Shown: positions 1,978 through 36,413 of the stretch, piece by piece
How positions within the stretch are numbered: the stretch's first letter is position 1
Layout of the letters: the number at the start of each line of letters is the position of its first letter
Source of the DNA: a virus
Virus record (IMG/VR): IMGVR_UViG_3300029267_003268
Location: 1-53,395 of that record
Reading direction: 5' to 3' (one strand)
DNA length: 53,395 nt
Program-made: the position numbers and the translations under genes
The notes under the pieces: generated by a model
Database searches by the model: none
What the model was told of the DNA's origin: nothing
The model's input: only the letters and a program-made list of their open reading frames with translations

Positions 1978-4662
1978 GTGGAGCAAATGGTCGCATTGAC
2001 CGATACAGAACGAGTAGTAGCCGAGCGGTTATTCCGATACGGGGCCGATCCGCGCGGTTTCACTATCCACATTCTCAACCATCCCGCCGAGTACTACTGG
2101 CCGAAGATGCAGGAAGTGGCCGAGAGCGTGCGCGACTATCAGTTGACCGCCGTCCCCGCCGGCCACTCGGTCAGTAAGGCGTTAGAAGTTAGCACTCCGA
2201 TTCTCACGCCGTCTGGTTTTGTCTCGATGTCGAACCTTGCCGCCGGTGATATTGTCTACGGCGAATACGGCCAGCGTATTCATGTCACGGGTCGTTCTCC
2301 GGTCCGGCGTCGCCTGTCGTATGAATTGACCTTTGACGACGGGGCTTCTTTACTTGCCTGCGACGAACACTTGTGGGCGGCGCACGATTATGTGTCTCGT
2401 ACGCACATGCGTCGCCAGTGCCGTCAGGAGTATCGAGCGTCCTGGTCTTCGTCGCGCCTTGTGAACACGCTGGGGATTGCTTCGGCGTTACGCCACAACG
2501 GCCAGACCAATTGGTCCATTCCCGTTGCTTCTGCCGTGCGTGGTCGGTCCCATCTGTCGGGCGCTTATACGATTGGTTTTTGGTTGGGCGACGGCTGTCG
2601 GGGCACTGCGGTGGTGACGATTGGCGATGGCGATGCACCGGAGGTGTTATCTCGGATTGCGGCCGATGGTTTTTCGTGTAGCCGTCAGCCCTCTGCCGAC
2701 CAGGAGAATTGCAAGAATTACACCATCCACGGTTTGCGTGGTCTCTTGCGTAGGTATGGTATTTTCAAGGACAAGCGCATCCTGGTTCGCTGGTTGCGCT
2801 TGCGGTACGAAGATCGACTGGCGTTATTGCGCGGGTACATGGACGCCGACGGCTGGCGTCTGGCCCATGGCAAATCCGCTGCTGTTGGCACGACGGACCG
2901 GCGCATGTACGAGACGGTTGTTCCGTTCGTTGCCTCCTTCGGAAACAAGGTCTTTTGTAAGACGGAGACCATAACATACAAAGGTCAGCCGAAACTCGTA
3001 TACAAGCTGAACTTCACGCCTCGTGACCAGCCGTTTTGTTTGGCGCGAAAGCAATTACAGAACAGCCTCAGCGTTCACGCACGCCGGCGACAGACGGCTC
3101 GCATGATCTTGGATTGTCAACCTGTCGGCGAAAAGGATGTCTGCTGTATTGAGACCGACAACCCAAGCGGTCTGTATTTGGCTGGTCCTCATTTGGTGCC
3201 GACCCATAACACCCACGGCGCCGGGCGTATCGTTCCCTGGTTCAAGACTTGCTATCAGCCGTCCACGGTGATTACGACGGCCCCGTCGGACAATCAGGTT
3301 CGCAATCAGCTCTGGCGTCAGATACACGGGGCGTATGCGGCAGCCAACGGTGTGCTGGGCGGGAAGATGACGGCGTTGCAGTGGGACCTGCGGCCCTCGG
3401 ACGAGGTATTGCAGCAGATGGACCCGGCGGAGCGGCAATGGTGGTTCTTGAACTTCGCCATGGGCTTTTCGACGTCTCCGGACACCGTGAGCGAACACGC
3501 AACCAAGATCGCTGGCTGGCACAACCGCTGGATGCTCATCGTCCTTGATGAGGCGTGCGGCATTGCCCCCCCGATTTGGCGGACGGTCATGGACGCACTG
3601 GTCATCAACGAACAAGTCAAGGTCCTGGCTATCGGCAATCCCACGGACCCGGAAGCGGAGTTCGCGGCGGCCTGCCGCTTGAACGGTTCCCTGGAACATC
3701 TCGCCGCGCCCAACGGGGACATGCGCGGGCCTTCCGTATCCTACATGGGCGACGAAGGCTGGCATGTGGTACCCGTCTCCGTTTTTGATACCCCCAACTA
3801 CAAGGAAGGCACAGAACGGATTCCCGGTTTGGCGGGGCGCTCGTACGTCACACTGATTGAGAAGAAGCATCCTCCCGGCAGTAACGGCTGGCTGATTCGG
3901 CTGCGCGGGGCCTTCCCTTCGCACAAGGAGGGCACGTACTACGGGTACGAGCTGTCCCAGGCCAAGAGCCAGAACCGCATCGGCCGCTTCCCCCATGATC
4001 CCACCTTCCCGGTCTACTGCTTCGCCGATCTCGGGGACGTTTACACGGCGGCGATTTGGGTGCAGTTCATTCGCGACCGCGTTCGGGTCATCGGCGATTA
4101 CTGGGACAATAACGGCATCGTGAAGGTGCTCGGCGATACCCACACGGTAGATGGGGCCGGGGCCGAGGCGTTCGCCCGCGCCATGCACAGCGTTCCTTAC
4201 ACCTGGGGCAAGCAGCATTACGCCGGGCCCGACCTGACCGGCAGTAACGCCAAGAAGTTCGGCCAGTCCGGCCAGACGACGCAGACGCTGCTGCGCAGTC
4301 TCGGCTTCAATTTCCAGCCGTGCGAGAACGTAGGTTTCAACGAGGGCATTCAGAGCGTTCGCAATCTCTTCCCGCTTTTGGATATCGACGCCGCCGGCGC
4401 AGCTACCTTTGTCAAGGCCATTACCGGCTACCACAAGGCCAAGAACGCCGGGCTCAGTACGCAGGACGAGGCGGCCTTCCACAATCAGCCGGCGGCTACC
4501 TGGCACCGGCACACGGCCGACGCGCTGCGGCACTTGGCCGTCGCCTACGAGTACAATACGATCAACGGGCAATACCTCGGGTCCAAGCGGGTCATCGCCC
4601 AGTACCGTACTATCCAGCGCGGCAAGCGCGGTAAATATGACCCGATGGAATGGGTCGCATAA
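1978..4662 (+). CDS. terL: Terminase large subunit interrupted by an intein
   Basis: 894 aa precursor; removing the 344-aa intein leaves 550 aa, a normal length for this ATPase-nuclease. The joined extein P-loop reads GHSVSKTHGAG, so the intein sits between the Walker A Lys67 and the following Thr. Walker B is MLIVLDEA (Asp524, Glu525). The C-terminal nuclease shows acidic residues in FADLGD (Asp684) and TADALRHL (Asp848). It pumps DNA into the prohead and cuts the concatemer. GTG at 1978 is given as the start; ATG at 1987 is an alternative, and neither has an ideal ribosome site. Activity should depend on protein splicing, since the ATP site is split. Confidence 0.93.
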   Translation: MEQMVALTDTERVVAERLFRYGADPRGFTIHILNHPAEYYWPKMQEVAESVRDYQLTAVPAGHSVSKALEVSTPILTPSGFVSMSNLAAGDIVYGEYGQRIHVTGRSPVRRRLSYELTFDDGASLLACDEHLWAAHDYVSRTHMRRQCRQEYRASWSSSRLVNTLGIASALRHNGQTNWSIPVASAVRGRSHLSGAYTIGFWLGDGCRGTAVVTIGDGDAPEVLSRIAADGFSCSRQPSADQENCKNYTIHGLRGLLRRYGIFKDKRILVRWLRLRYEDRLALLRGYMDADGWRLAHGKSAAVGTTDRRMYETVVPFVASFGNKVFCKTETITYKGQPKLVYKLNFTPRDQPFCLARKQLQNSLSVHARRRQTARMILDCQPVGEKDVCCIETDNPSGLYLAGPHLVPTHNTHGAGRIVPWFKTCYQPSTVITTAPSDNQVRNQLWRQIHGAYAAANGVLGGKMTALQWDLRPSDEVLQQMDPAERQWWFLNFAMGFSTSPDTVSEHATKIAGWHNRWMLIVLDEACGIAPPIWRTVMDALVINEQVKVLAIGNPTDPEAEFAAACRLNGSLEHLAAPNGDMRGPSVSYMGDEGWHVVPVSVFDTPNYKEGTERIPGLAGRSYVTLIEKKHPPGSNGWLIRLRGAFPSHKEGTYYGYELSQAKSQNRIGRFPHDPTFPVYCFADLGDVYTAAIWVQFIRDRVRVIGDYWDNNGIVKVLGDTHTVDGAGAEAFARAMHSVPYTWGKQHYAGPDLTGSNAKKFGQSGQTTQTLLRSLGFNFQPCENVGFNEGIQSVRNLFPLLDIDAAGAATFVKAITGYHKAKNAGLSTQDEAAFHNQPAATWHRHTADALRHLAVAYEYNTINGQYLGSKRVIAQYRTIQRGKRGKYDPMEWVA
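2179..3210 (+). other. Class 3 intein with LAGLIDADG endonuclease
   Basis: The 344-aa insert runs from Ala68 to Asn411, followed by Thr412 (+1). It lacks the usual Cys/Ser at position 1. It carries the three residues that define class 3 inteins: Trp133 two residues after the block B His (DEHLW), Cys390 in block F (DVCCIE), and Thr409 before the terminal His-Asn (PTHN). Two homing-endonuclease blocks are visible, GFWLGDG near residues 200-206 and GYMDADG near 286-292. The insert looks less GC-biased at wobble sites than the flanking extein, suggesting later arrival. By eye the element looks intact. Confidence 0.9.
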
Positions 4663-31970: not shown

Positions 31971-32709
31971 ATGTGTATTCCGGCCAGTTTTGTCGTAACG
32001 AAAGAGCGTGTCTTTTGGTCGAAGAACACGGACTCGCACGAAGAAATCATTTGCGAGTTCAGGTTGAAAGAGATGGACGTGCGCGGCACACCCACATTGG
32101 TCCGCATCGAAATAACCCCGCCGATGGCGGACCTGGGTAAGCCCCTCACGGATTGGGTATACCACCTCGACCGACAGGATATTCGACCGAGTTGGTACGA
32201 CGCCGCCGATGTTGAGCGACGCGCCCGATCCGTCTTGCCCCAGTGGCGTGACGCGAAAGTCGTCGGTCCTGGCGAGGTGCGCGAAAAGCACACGGAAGGC
32301 CAAATCTACGTCTACGGCGGGACCGTGCAGAAGGTCTACAACGGCGGGACCGTGCAGAAGGTCTACGGCGGGACCGTGCAGGAGGTCTACGGCGGCGGGA
32401 CCGTGCAGGAGGTCTGCGACGGCGGGACCGTGCAGAAGGTCTACGGCGGGACCGTGCAGGAGGTCTAAGGAGGTCTACGGTGGCGGGACCGTGCAGGAGG
32501 TCTACGGCGGGACCGTGCAGAAGGTCTACAACGGCGGGACCGTGCAGAAGGTCTACGGCGGGTCCGTGCAGAAGGTCTGCGACGGGACCGTGCAGACGTA
32601 TGTACCTCTCGCGGAAATCGAACTGATAGGGACAAGCGTCCTGATTGAGCGTGTTAATGGCCGGGTCTCGGTGCGCACTGGGGACGGCCGGAGTTTGCGG
32701 GAGAAGTGA
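31971..32709 (+). pseudogene. Repeat-rich DUF7666-like protein split by a 10-bp duplication
   Basis: The first reading frame (31971-32468) starts MCIPASFVVTKERVFW, an N-terminal domain that I associate with DUF7666-type phage proteins, then enters GGTVQ-K/E-VY repeats. A TAA ends it at 32466-32468. Translation resumes in another frame with the same repeats and a unique C-terminus (PLAEIELIGTSVL ... GDGRSLREK) ending at 32709. The cause is visible: AGGAGGTCTA occurs twice in tandem around 32458-32477. Removing one copy rejoins the frames into one protein of about 243 residues. It may be a slippage on/off switch, a fresh mutation or an assembly error. Confidence 0.75.
32315..32600 (+). repeat. 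Degenerate 21-24 bp tandem repeats encoding GGTVQxVY units
   Basis: Units built on GGCGGGACCGTGCAGAAGGTC or the GAGGTC variant repeat about a dozen times. Each encodes a short strand-turn unit, so the protein probably forms a small beta-solenoid. Near-identity of units makes the tract prone to slippage. Confidence 0.85.
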
Positions 32710-33426: not shown

Positions 33427-33455
33427 TTGCGACCTATGACTGGTGTTGGTACGAT
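33427..33455 (+). promoter_or_regulatory. Possible integrase promoter
   Basis: TTGCGA (33427-33432), 17 bp, then TACGAT (33450-33455); each hexamer matches consensus at four of six. A 6-bp hairpin GTCGGC/GCCGAC (33459-33478) follows in the leader and may limit translation. Confidence 0.4.
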
Positions 33456-33496
33456 GCGGTCGGCTTGCGAGGGCCGACTGGAAAGTAGGTGTTATC

Positions 33497-34438
33497 ATGC
33501 AACAGTCAATCGCAAGCTGTTTCGAGCTATATCTGGCTCGATCTGACTTACGCCCATCGTCGGTAAGGTTCAAAAAGCAGGCGTTGCGGTACTTTCTCAA
33601 GTGGTTCGGCGATCTGGAAATTGGGTCTGTTACCCCTGCGATAGCAGAAGACTATCGGACGCTGCTGGTGAAAGAAGGGCGGTCGCGAAGCACGGCCAAC
33701 GGCTATCTCGCGAACTTCAAGCCATTCTGGAACTGGCTCAGGCGGCACGGACGAGTCCCGGCAAATCCGTTTGACGGGGTTAAACCGTTCAAGATTACCG
33801 AACCGGCGCGGGAGACGTTTACGCCCGCCGAACTGGCGCGATTGATGACGGTAGGCGACCCGCTATGGCAGGGGCGCATCTGTCTCGGACTGCTGGGCTG
33901 TCGGCGTGGTGAAACGCTCAACGTGACCGTCGCGGACATCCATTTGGATGCCACCGTGCCGCATATCCTGCTGGCACCGAAGACGGTGGGACCGGACCGC
34001 TGGGCCTGGGAACTCAAGGATCATGCGATCCGGTACGTCGCGTTGCCGAAGATGATGCGGTTTGTCGGGCGCACGGTGGATCTGCACGGGTTGATTGGTG
34101 GCCTGATAGCAGCGTTGCCGTCAGGTCAACCGTATGTGTTTGTCGAACCGCGTTACTACCGGCGATGCGTCGGTCGAACGTGGGTACCGGACCCGACTGG
34201 GAACTTTCAACGGATGTTCCGGGCCGTACAGCGCCGGGCACAGATCGAGCCACCGCGTAGGTATCACGAGTTACGAGCGGCTTTCGCCACCGCCATGATT
34301 GACGCCGTTGGGCTCAGTCGGGCGGCGGACGCACTCGGACACTCAACTACGCAACTCACACGAAAGTATGATCGTCACGGAAAGATGTCGTTGCTGTCGG
34401 AAATCGGTTCGGCAGCACAAAAATGTTATGTGTCGTAG
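33497..34438 (+). CDS. int: Tyrosine-family integrase
   Basis: 313 aa. Residues about 1-100 form a SAM-like core-binding domain (LRPSSVRFKKQALRYFLKWF). The catalytic domain shows Arg136 (GCRRGE), His257-x-x-Arg260 (HELR), His282 (GHST) and the nucleophile Tyr291 (TRKYDRH). It inserts the phage at its attachment site and marks it as temperate. The start is chosen after the leader hairpin; an in-frame ATG at 33443 would add 18 residues unlike the family. It sits between a tRNA gene and a set of short repeats, both typical of attachment regions. Confidence 0.92.
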   Translation: MQQSIASCFELYLARSDLRPSSVRFKKQALRYFLKWFGDLEIGSVTPAIAEDYRTLLVKEGRSRSTANGYLANFKPFWNWLRRHGRVPANPFDGVKPFKITEPARETFTPAELARLMTVGDPLWQGRICLGLLGCRRGETLNVTVADIHLDATVPHILLAPKTVGPDRWAWELKDHAIRYVALPKMMRFVGRTVDLHGLIGGLIAALPSGQPYVFVEPRYYRRCVGRTWVPDPTGNFQRMFRAVQRRAQIEPPRRYHELRAAFATAMIDAVGLSRAADALGHSTTQLTRKYDRHGKMSLLSEIGSAAQKCYVS

Positions 34439-34508
34439 GTCTCATAAGATATGTTGTGAGACCGCTTATGTGTCGCTCTGGCGATATTAACAGACATCTT
34501 ATGTGACG
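34425..34508 (+). repeat. Short repeats after int, candidate arm-type sites
   Basis: TTATGTGTCG or TTATGTGACG occurs at 34426-34435, 34466-34475 and 34499-34508. An inverted relative (CTCATAAG) lies at 34443-34450, and a 7-bp hairpin GGTCTCA/TGAGACC spans 34438-34463. Repeats of this kind next to int often bind the integrase N-terminus or an excision factor. Confidence 0.45.
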
Positions 34509-34579
34509 GCCCTCGCAAGCTACTTTTCAGTCCCCCAGCACACGCTGGGTCAAACAGAGCCGGGGCTGCTTCGTCCCTC

Positions 34580-34597
34580 GGGGCGGCCCCAATATTT
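34580..34597 (+). repeat. 18-bp direct repeat, copy 1
   Basis: GGGGCGGCCCCAATATTT. An identical copy at 35077-35094 lies on the far side of the single gene 34613-35077. The GGGG/CCCC part can form a short hairpin. Confidence 0.9.
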
Positions 34598-34612
34598 CTG
34601 AAAGGAGACACA

Positions 34613-35077
34613 GTGAGACGACGCGATTTGTTGAAGGGTGCCGTCGCTACGGCGGTAGCCTTTCCGGTCAAAGCCTCGCCGGACCAGCCCGTGGACGATC
34701 CCGAGGCGAGGCAGATACCAGCGTTGCCAGAGACATGCGACGAAGCGCTTCGTCGATGGGACGCAGGGTTGTCTGTGTTTACGGTGGAAATGGGCGGCAT
34801 CGGGCCTGGTTATGAACAGGTGATTCACCTGATGGTCTTCGAGTTGATACGCCAATTACGGGGTGTGCCTTTGAAAGACAACGAGGACGACCTGAATAAG
34901 CAATTCAGCGATTATCTTAAGTCGTCGTTTGTCAAGGAGCTTGGCCCCAGCGGCGCCCAGTGGGGAGCGGCACAGAATCTCGCCTATGTCATGTTGACGC
35001 AGGGGTACGGGGACGCCCTTCGAAGCGTTCCAGACGACAGGCATATTCAGGTGTCCCGCCAGTTCCCGCATCTTTAG
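34613..35077 (+). CDS. Exported protein with Tat-type signal, in a repeat-bounded cassette
   Basis: 154 aa. The N-terminus MRRRDLLKGAVATAVAF has the twin-arginine pattern (R-R-x-L-L-K) followed by a mildly hydrophobic core and a cleavage-like KASP. The mature part is helical and ends with PSGAQWGAAQNLAYVMLTQ and a DDRHIQVSR segment, resembling uncharacterised phage proteins. AAAGGAGACA precedes the GTG start. Tat substrates are folded before export and often carry cofactors; none is evident here. Confidence 0.65.
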   Translation: MRRRDLLKGAVATAVAFPVKASPDQPVDDPEARQIPALPETCDEALRRWDAGLSVFTVEMGGIGPGYEQVIHLMVFELIRQLRGVPLKDNEDDLNKQFSDYLKSSFVKELGPSGAQWGAAQNLAYVMLTQGYGDALRSVPDDRHIQVSRQFPHL

Positions 35078-35094
35078 GGGCGGCCCCAATATTT
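35077..35094 (+). repeat. 18-bp direct repeat, copy 2
   Basis: Identical to 34580-34597. It begins at the last base of the Tat-signal gene's stop codon, so the two copies delimit a one-gene unit of 497 bp. Confidence 0.9.
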
Positions 35095-36049
35095 GAGTAT
35101 CACGGAGTTGGCGGCGGCGTGGTGTGAACACGCAGGCGGCGTCTGCCAATCGGCAGTGAAACGAATATTCGCAGGTGCAAGCACAGCATGTCCTCATTAG
35201 CCTTGACTGCGAGGCTTGTGTAAGAGGACCGTCGCATCTGGCAGGTTTTTATCGTTTGTCCCACAAACGAGCCGGTAGGGGCTCGATCAGCCAATCCGGC
35301 CCGCCAACTCCTGATTGAGTCATCGATGAAGCCAGCGACAGGCTTGGGCGGATACGTTGTCGCCGTTCGTTCCGGGTCCAACCGGGCGGATCGGACATCC
35401 GCGCCACCAACACTATTTACTTGATGCACAGACAGGCTCCTATCCCGGATGTGTTCCGGGGGCCAGGCCATGACTGGGCCGACTTCCCGCGTAATTCGGC
35501 CCTTGACGGTATGGATGTTGCGTGCTGTCCCTATCGTGACGAATGTTGCGAGCGCGGGGTCAGGGGCCGCTAACCATTGAAGGCCGGTAACGGCCAAGTT
35601 GCATCGCCCGGCAATAGGGCACGCATGAGCCGGGCAACATTTGAGTACATCGTAGGTGAACGTCGGCTTCATGTCGTGCCGTCCTTGTAGGGCGCTAGCC
35701 TGCGATTGGAGTTGGCGGCGGCGTGACGAAATCGCATTCACGACCGGGTGCTGGAAAAACGTCAGCAGGGCCGAAGATCGAAGCCGTAAGGCGGGGACGC
35801 CAGATCACCCGAACAACTGCATAATACGGGCAGCCGGGGTAGCGTCCGGCCCGCCAACTCCTGATTGTTTCACCCCCGTCGAGCAGAGACGCTCGGCGGG
35901 ATTCATTGAGACCGGCGATGGCGTGGCAGCGCTAGGTGACTGACTCCGATTGTTGCAACCAGCTTAACGGCTGACTCCAGGACTGCCAAAACCGCAACGA
36001 CTGTGAGTGGAGTCGGAATAGGGGAATCCGGCCCGCCGGTCTCAGTTAT
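35095..36049. other. Repeat-rich, mostly non-coding island
   Basis: Nearly 1 kb without a convincing rightward gene, in a genome with almost no other such space. An 18-bp segment GGAGTTGGCGGCGGCGTG occurs at 35104 and 35708. A 23-bp segment starting TCCGGCCCGCCAACTCC occurs at 35295 and 35845, and its core TCCGGCCCGCC again at 36027. The start of one is the reverse complement of the middle of the other (GGAGTTGGCGG/CCGCCAACTCC), so 35104-35313 and 35708-35863 can each close into a large stem-loop. A leftward reading frame is listed separately with low confidence. Confidence 0.7.
35100..35672 (-). CDS. Doubtful leftward reading frame in the RNA island
   Basis: 190 codons from ATG 35672, with AAGGA 9 bases upstream. 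It opens MKPTFTYDVLKCCPAHACP, with four cysteines early on. It overlaps the repeated inverted segments, has an unbalanced composition and matches no family known to me. It may be chance. Confidence 0.25.
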   Translation of the reverse strand: MKPTFTYDVLKCCPAHACPIAGRCNLAVTGLQWLAAPDPALATFVTIGTARNIHTVKGRITREVGPVMAWPPEHIRDRSLSVHQVNSVGGADVRSARLDPERTATTYPPKPVAGFIDDSIRSWRAGLADRAPTGSFVGQTIKTCQMRRSSYTSLAVKANEDMLCLHLRIFVSLPIGRRRLRVHTTPPPTP

Positions 36050-36181
36050 GCCCCCGTAGTAGTGTAGCGGCCTATCGCACGATGGCCCCGGTTTATGGAC
36101 GGGAAGAGGGCGACGCGTCACCCCGCCATCGGACGCCGGGATCGTATATCTCGCTCGCAGGTTCGAATCCTGCCGGGGGCG
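36050..36181 (+). tRNA. Expanded 132-nt tRNA-like element
   Basis: A perfect 7-bp acceptor stem (GCCCCCG 36050-36056 with CGGGGGC 36174-36180), a perfect T arm (GCAGG-TTCGAAT-CCTGC, 36157-36173) and a tRNA-like D region (GTGTAGCGGCC) are present. The core is about 55 nt too long. ATGGC/GCCAT (82-86 with 125-129, as 360xx-361xx) can form the anticodon stem around a 38-nt loop, and CGGGA/TCTCG (36137-36153) a variable-arm hairpin. Alternatively CGATGGC/GCCATCG marks an intron-like insert of 52 nt. No anticodon can be assigned safely. Confidence 0.6.
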
Positions 36182-36413
36182 TTCAAGCCTTTTCATCACC
36201 CTCCTCCGAAGCTCGGCGGTCGCCCGCCGGGCTTTACCCACAATCGCGCTTTCGGCGGTCCGAGCAAGGACGCGTTCCGGCGAAACCGAGGCGCGCTCGT
36301 TACGGGCCAAGGCCGGGCCAGGGAGGGCTCGGTTCTTGTTCCCCGGTAATCCGTACTCACTCTCGGGCCAGTTGGCAGACGGACCTGCCGACTGCCCGTA
36401 GGAGGTACACAAA
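36182..36413. other. Intergenic stretch before the early operon
   Basis: 232 bp, GC-rich, with several potential hairpins and no supportable gene. AGGAGG at the end serves the next gene. A promoter for the rightward early operon would be expected here or just upstream, but I cannot pick one. Confidence 0.4.

Follow-up and report, generated by a model that had tools for sequence, protein, structure and literature searches.

A small gene bracketed by two exact copies of an 18-bp direct repeat lies close downstream of the integrase gene in the 53,395-base stretch of viral DNA analysed here (the window). As judged from sequence comparison, its product is not an ORFan, but rather is a member of a widespread, uncatalogued family of phage proteins, with a Tat-like tag at its N-terminus that none of the relatives found shares. 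The family and the restriction of the tag to one member are the new findings of this work. We consider the chances to be about even that the gene is an accessory (moron-like) gene acquired beside the attP of a temperate tailed phage and that it represents an export-tagged variant of this family. A sequence-only reading of the same DNA had proposed that such a cassette is gained and lost by site-specific recombination or slippage. Of that proposal we keep the location beside the attachment site and the probable acquisition of what we regard as an accessory gene, but nothing in our analyses indicates that a site-specific system is at work or that the gene still comes and goes.

The window comes from an IMG/VR virus record. 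Its end repeats its beginning over ~55 bases, which fits a complete circular genome, and it encodes a major head protein and a head-tail adaptor with matches to PHROG 212 and 332. The closest phage by major capsid protein (62%) is L014. The gene for the terminase large subunit in the window (1978-4662) carries an intein-like insert at the Walker A site (about residues 68-412), which starts with ALEVSTPILTPSGF and ends with VPTHN, and the L014 relative is uninterrupted there. A 24/27-nt minisatellite inside reading frames (32310-32596) differs in length from its counterpart in IMGVR 3300017987_000171, an otherwise near-identical contig (68 gap bases in the alignment).

The repeat GGGGCGGCCCCAATATTT is present exactly twice in the window, on the same strand, with a start-to-start distance of 497, and the identity of the two copies stops at 18 bp on both sides. 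A window search reveals no third match with up to three mismatches. Between the copies (Table 1) there is a single convincing gene, with a GTG start and a TAG stop codon (35075-35077), whose product starts with MRRRDLLKGAVATAVAFPVKASP. Thus, the earlier description of identical copies flanking exactly one gene, of a product beginning with MRRRDLLKG, and of a repeat positioned at the stop codon is accurate, as the first base of copy 2 is the last base of the TAG. That this arrangement is due to chance is scarcely credible. The repeated word is indeed G+C rich and partly self-complementary, but only 0.06 matches at three mismatches are expected from shuffled sequences, versus the two exact ones observed to bracket a single gene.

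Table 1. Coordinates in the window of the accessory gene, the flanking repeats and the neighbouring integrase and structured elements.
Feature	Positions	Strand	Remarks
Tyrosine integrase (int)	33443..34438	+	331 aa; Pfam Phage_integrase 1.8e-8; PHROG 1 1.9e-34
Inverted repeat around most of int, left member GCTTGCGAGGGCCG	33463..33476	.	repeat search
Probable attP array	34426..34508	+	three direct TTATGTGWCG at 34426, 34466 and 34499
Palindromic candidate attP core GGTCTCATAAGATATGTTGTGAGACC	34438..34463	+	fold z -5.8; role inferred
Inverted repeat flanking int, right member CGGCCCTCGCAAGC	34507..34520	.	repeat search
Hairpin, 12-bp stem	34562..34590	+	terminator-like but poor T tail
Direct repeat copy 1	34580..34597	+	hairpin 3′ arm plus AATATTT
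Shine-Dalgarno GGAG within AAAGGAG	34604..34607	+	5 nt ahead of GTG start
Accessory gene	34613..35077	+	154 aa; MGGxGPGYEQ-family protein with Tat-like N-terminus
Tat-like signal MRRRDLLKGAVATAVAFPVKA	34613..34675	+	residues 1-21; Pfam PF10518 below cut-off
Conserved family core	34724..35074	+	residues 38-154; A3 alignment; AlphaFold2
Direct repeat copy 2	35077..35094	+	begins on last stop-codon base; alone only a 4-bp hairpin
Structured element 1	35104..35311	+	208 nt; closing stem GGAGTTGGCGG/CCGCCAACTCC; fold z -4.9
Structured element 2	35708..35861	+	154 nt; closing stem as element 1; z -2.9
Structured element 3	35908..36043	+	136 nt; closing stem GAGACCGGCG/CGCCGGTCTC; z -3.1

The sequence-only reading had placed the cassette near the attachment region, and this placement agrees with the integrase and the attP-like array that we find directly upstream. 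TTATGTGWCG has just three matches in the window versus 0.17 expected, and TTATCAGACA-type or related repeats are present at the corresponding place in four integrase relatives (L005, L017, L018 and L019). Sites of the form ATAAnATATG, akin to the candidate core, follow int in L005 and L018. The array plus the palindromic core is therefore probably attP. Because the accessory gene is located past this probable attP, beside the integrase, it would sit at the end of the prophage in a lysogen, although the position of attP is itself inferred. Prophage ends are a usual place for host-modifying genes. No close relatives of the accessory gene or the integrase were found in GTDB genomes, and a search of phage and plasmid records with the integrase returned none. 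In the window, L005, L018 and L019 (four distinct phages), int is bracketed by perfect inverted repeats of 11-14 bp, whose sequence varies between phages while complementarity is kept.

The hairpin that precedes the accessory gene is predicted to have a folding energy of -24 to -28 kcal/mol, and no shuffled sequence folds equally well. Copy 1 of the repeat forms the 3′ arm of this 12-bp hairpin, whereas copy 2 has no 5′ arm with which to pair. By consensus scan, no promoter-like site lies next to the accessory gene, and the sole hairpin is the upstream one. One could propose that copy 2 is nevertheless functional, such that int and the accessory gene each have one copy as a terminator or processing element and these were duplicated along with the structured elements. 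In both copies the self-complementary segment GGGGCGGCCCC is followed by an A+T tail, copy 2 directly follows the stop codon, and the region is rich in duplicated elements. However, copy 2 alone forms just a 4-bp hairpin with a loop of three (-6.2 kcal/mol), which is no better than those of shuffled sequences, and its tail is poor in T. We regard this explanation as unlikely.

Comparison with the integrase relatives suggests how the gene came to be there. None of the four phages, whose int sequences are 51-55% identical to that of the window, carries the accessory gene at the corresponding place, and no match to it was found anywhere in the whole L005 record. The order in L018 is int, attP repeats, hairpin, a spacer of ~14 nt and a structured element, with no gene. 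If the gene and one repeat are removed from the window, then a similar layout results, with a hairpin, a spacer of at most 16 nt and a structured element. The sequence at the right junction, ATTTGAGTA, is found again in two places, at position 35639 of the window and, in L005, directly behind attP, which points to the right junction being the older one. Given this recurrence, the layout of L018, and the fact that copy 1 but not copy 2 is part of a hairpin, we favour the view that insertion of the gene duplicated 18 bp of the hairpin arm. These observations do not constitute proof, because the relatives share just 51-55% identity in int and because the sole other contig with the 18-bp repeats, IMGVR 3300017987_000171, belongs to the same virus. 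This contig differs by three mismatches in 40.8 kb and was not counted as an independent relative.

The notion that the cassette is moved by site-specific recombination finds no support, since the repeat and the attP core are dissimilar, the insert lacks terminal inverted repeats and a transposase, and copy 1 is one half of a hairpin. An inverted-repeat search revealed no inverted ends on the 479-bp insert, which also contains no transposase-sized frame besides the accessory gene itself. This does not fit a transposon with a target-site duplication. Cassette exchange mediated by Int was ruled out as well, given that the repeat bears no resemblance to the attP core. Slippage might in principle gain or lose the gene, as had been suggested, but such an event was not seen, and the one further contig that contains the repeats comes from the same virus. 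Likewise, relatives with an empty site carrying one repeat, which had been proposed as a check, were not found, and the gene-less integrase relatives are too distant to reveal one.

It is very unlikely that the repeats are active in living populations, with the gene being deleted and restored in a phase-like manner as the two 18-bp copies recombine or slip. The exact identity of the copies does suggest recent origin or upkeep, and they bracket precisely one gene, which copy 2 neatly ends. Against this, the gene is kept in both contigs of this virus, the repeat lacks a recombinase-type core, no empty version was present among the viral contigs searched, and slippage can lose the gene but cannot regain it.

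Duplication may be a more general property of this region. All three dispersed repeat pairs of at least 18 bp with a spacing of 497-604 bp fall within 34580-35872, and so the whole of this region seems to duplicate readily. Given the local enrichment in other repeats of 18-28 bp, the repeat that flanks the accessory gene could also stem from this general tendency.

Structured elements similar to those downstream of copy 2 (79-208 nt overall) reside near the integrase in several phages, including L018 (7094-7231), L019 (7099-7177) and L005 (5746-5874), and share similar GGCGGCGGC...CCCGCC ends with those of the window. Their outer closing stems vary on both sides (GGAGTT/AACTCC, GAGACC/GGTCTC, GGAT/ATCC). 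A search of Rfam yielded no match, and it is possible that these attP-linked elements constitute a new RNA family. A tRNA-like element at 36048-36184, with matching acceptor-like ends, a T-arm-like GCAGGTTCGAATCCTGC and an enlarged middle, was called by neither ARAGORN nor Rfam.

The protein family to which the accessory protein belongs was not evident from conventional searches. Neither the accessory gene nor two of its relatives gave a match when compared by tBLASTn with phage and plasmid collections. A degenerate DNA pattern for MGGxGPGYEQ, on the other hand, led to 34 other IMG/VR contigs (35 in total), whose frames align across the whole core, and a profile search gave 40 loci including that of the window virus, or ~39 other IMG/VR contigs with relatives. 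These relatives are 34-48% identical to the accessory protein, and the best (L029) shows 47.5% identity over 120 aa in an independent pairwise comparison. Alignment A3, with 32 sequences, has 16 invariant columns. The family invariants (W-D, MGGxGPGYEQ, E, R, the G of SGAQ, R and P) are all present, in order, in the accessory protein, which has the full core of RWDxG, MGGxGPGYEQ, LGxSGAQxGAA and DRxIQVSxxFP. It is recovered by hmmsearch with an E value of 1.5e-39, using a profile that includes this very sequence.

Run on an alignment, AlphaFold2 predicts with confidence a mostly helical core (mean pLDDT 84.8, with residues 41-150 mostly >90) and an unstructured N-terminus. Among PHROGs, Pfam, NCBIfam and PADLOC, the protein and the relatives tested gave just a weak TAT_signal match, that of the window protein. 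No credible match to the accessory protein was found in the PDB by sequence; the core model yielded no match at E <0.4 in Foldseek searches of the PDB and BFVD, and its best VIA-align result (Z 4.4) is not meaningful. A literature search for the signature GPGYEQ returned nothing relevant. In other phages, the neighbours of family genes include a few for RecT, Bet or exonucleases, which are too few for a function to be assigned.

The accessory protein differs from its relatives at the N-terminus. Short relatives start directly at the core, 21-40 residues ahead of the signature, and long ones carry an extra N-terminal domain of ~90 residues. In the profile alignment, the window protein alone aligns from residue 1, and the others begin at residues 24-46. 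Its N-terminal extension, ~37 residues long and including the Tat-like signal, has no counterpart in the 39 relatives, none of which has a hydrophobic RR N-terminus or other signal start.

The first residues of the accessory protein resemble known Tat signal peptides (PF10518) in several respects. R3R4-D-L-L fits the rule RR.[FGAVML][LITMVF] as quoted in PMC6085387, the RRDLLKG motif is followed by a weakly hydrophobic stretch, and the signal would finish with an A-x-A-like end. They differ from typical examples in that the Pfam TAT_signal score (15.3 bits as protein and 17.4 bits as a genome search) falls below the curated cut-off of 22.7 bits, in that the uncharged stretch comprises just 11 residues (GAVATAVAFPV, mean hydropathy 1.81, then VKA-SP), and in that no known cofactor-binding core follows. 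Codon usage in the first 37 codons does not stand out. The Tat-type signal noted by the earlier reading thus fits in its core motif, and is the sole match to the TAT_signal profile in this virus, but it is borderline by score and length. We put the chances that this stretch acts as a Tat signal at about even.

The rarity of Tat signatures in phages, also noted earlier, is evident by the fact that only two of 30 other phage records contain a TAT_signal match above the Pfam cut-off. One of these lies inside a 4,366-aa frame (L096, about 950-1010, motif MTRRDILKGMAALGVAANV) and is stronger than that of the window, demonstrating that the motif alone is no proof of export. The other record, L095, has two neighbouring Tat-like small genes on its minus strand, at 1024-1545 (MNRRDLLKGLMAGGVMTAAGL..., 173 aa) and 1726-1968 (MLSRRKFMQGLVAGVATVAMA..., 80 aa). 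In L014, a small gene between terminase and portal (2077-2466), for which no PHROG match was found, encodes an N-terminus, MTMKRRRFLKYLSGIPFVGSLTFAKS, that looks like a classic Tat signal.

It is quite conceivable, at somewhat less than even likelihood, that the N-terminal stretch is no Tat signal and instead forms a short basic-hydrophobic, membrane-associating tail or some feature of a cytoplasmic protein, with the gene product remaining in the cytoplasm like its relatives. The low score, the brevity of the uncharged stretch, the comparable motif within the giant phage protein and the relatives without a signal (39 of 39) are all consistent with this possibility. In addition, an in-frame TTG at 34724 (residue 38) counts against export, as it could be an internal start that gives rise to a protein of ordinary family length. 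Conversely, the RRxLLK motif is correctly placed, it is followed by GAVATAVAF and the VKA end, and an acidic-proline linker precedes the core. Moreover, the strong Shine-Dalgarno sequence is positioned for the long form, which supports translation of the signal, and this is the only such match in the virus.

Among known systems, the closest parallels are morons and lysogenic-conversion genes, which the accessory gene resembles in that it is one additional gene, equipped with a ribosome-binding site of its own, next to the probable attP, absent from the integrase relatives at this place, and with a predicted N-terminus that would suit the cell envelope. It differs in that 18 bp of a hairpin arm are exactly duplicated around it. 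Integron gene cassettes likewise carry single genes close to a tyrosine integrase, but the repeats in the window are direct 18-mers without likeness to the integrase core, and neither cassette end has an attC-type inverted repeat (RYYYAAC...GTTRRRY).

Returning to acquisition beside attP, we envision that the gene would have entered the junction hairpin-AATATTT|GAGTATC-structured element by short-homology or other illegitimate recombination, with a second copy of the hairpin's 18-bp 3′ arm left behind at the other end. The repeats would then be a scar of acquisition rather than a recombinase site. In a lysogen, the gene would abut the attachment site on the side away from int, and its own strong ribosome-binding site would serve for translation. 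The host Tat system might then export the folded core, or tether it to the inner membrane, and the protein would act in the envelope, whereas relatives of the protein presumably act in the cytoplasm.

It is therefore a tentative possibility, less than an even prospect, that the phage has re-addressed an otherwise cytoplasmic protein to the envelope via a Tat signal, to yield an exported lysogenic-conversion factor at the prophage border. Tat exports proteins that are already folded, and so a Tat-tagged phage gene of cytoplasmic stock would, if this is true, be a clear-cut example of protein relocation by a virus to a different compartment. It would also be a candidate modifier of the lysogen envelope. 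The MGGxGPGYEQ family as a whole, with ~40 phage contigs, strong conservation and an entry in none of the four family libraries, is a good target for structural and functional study.
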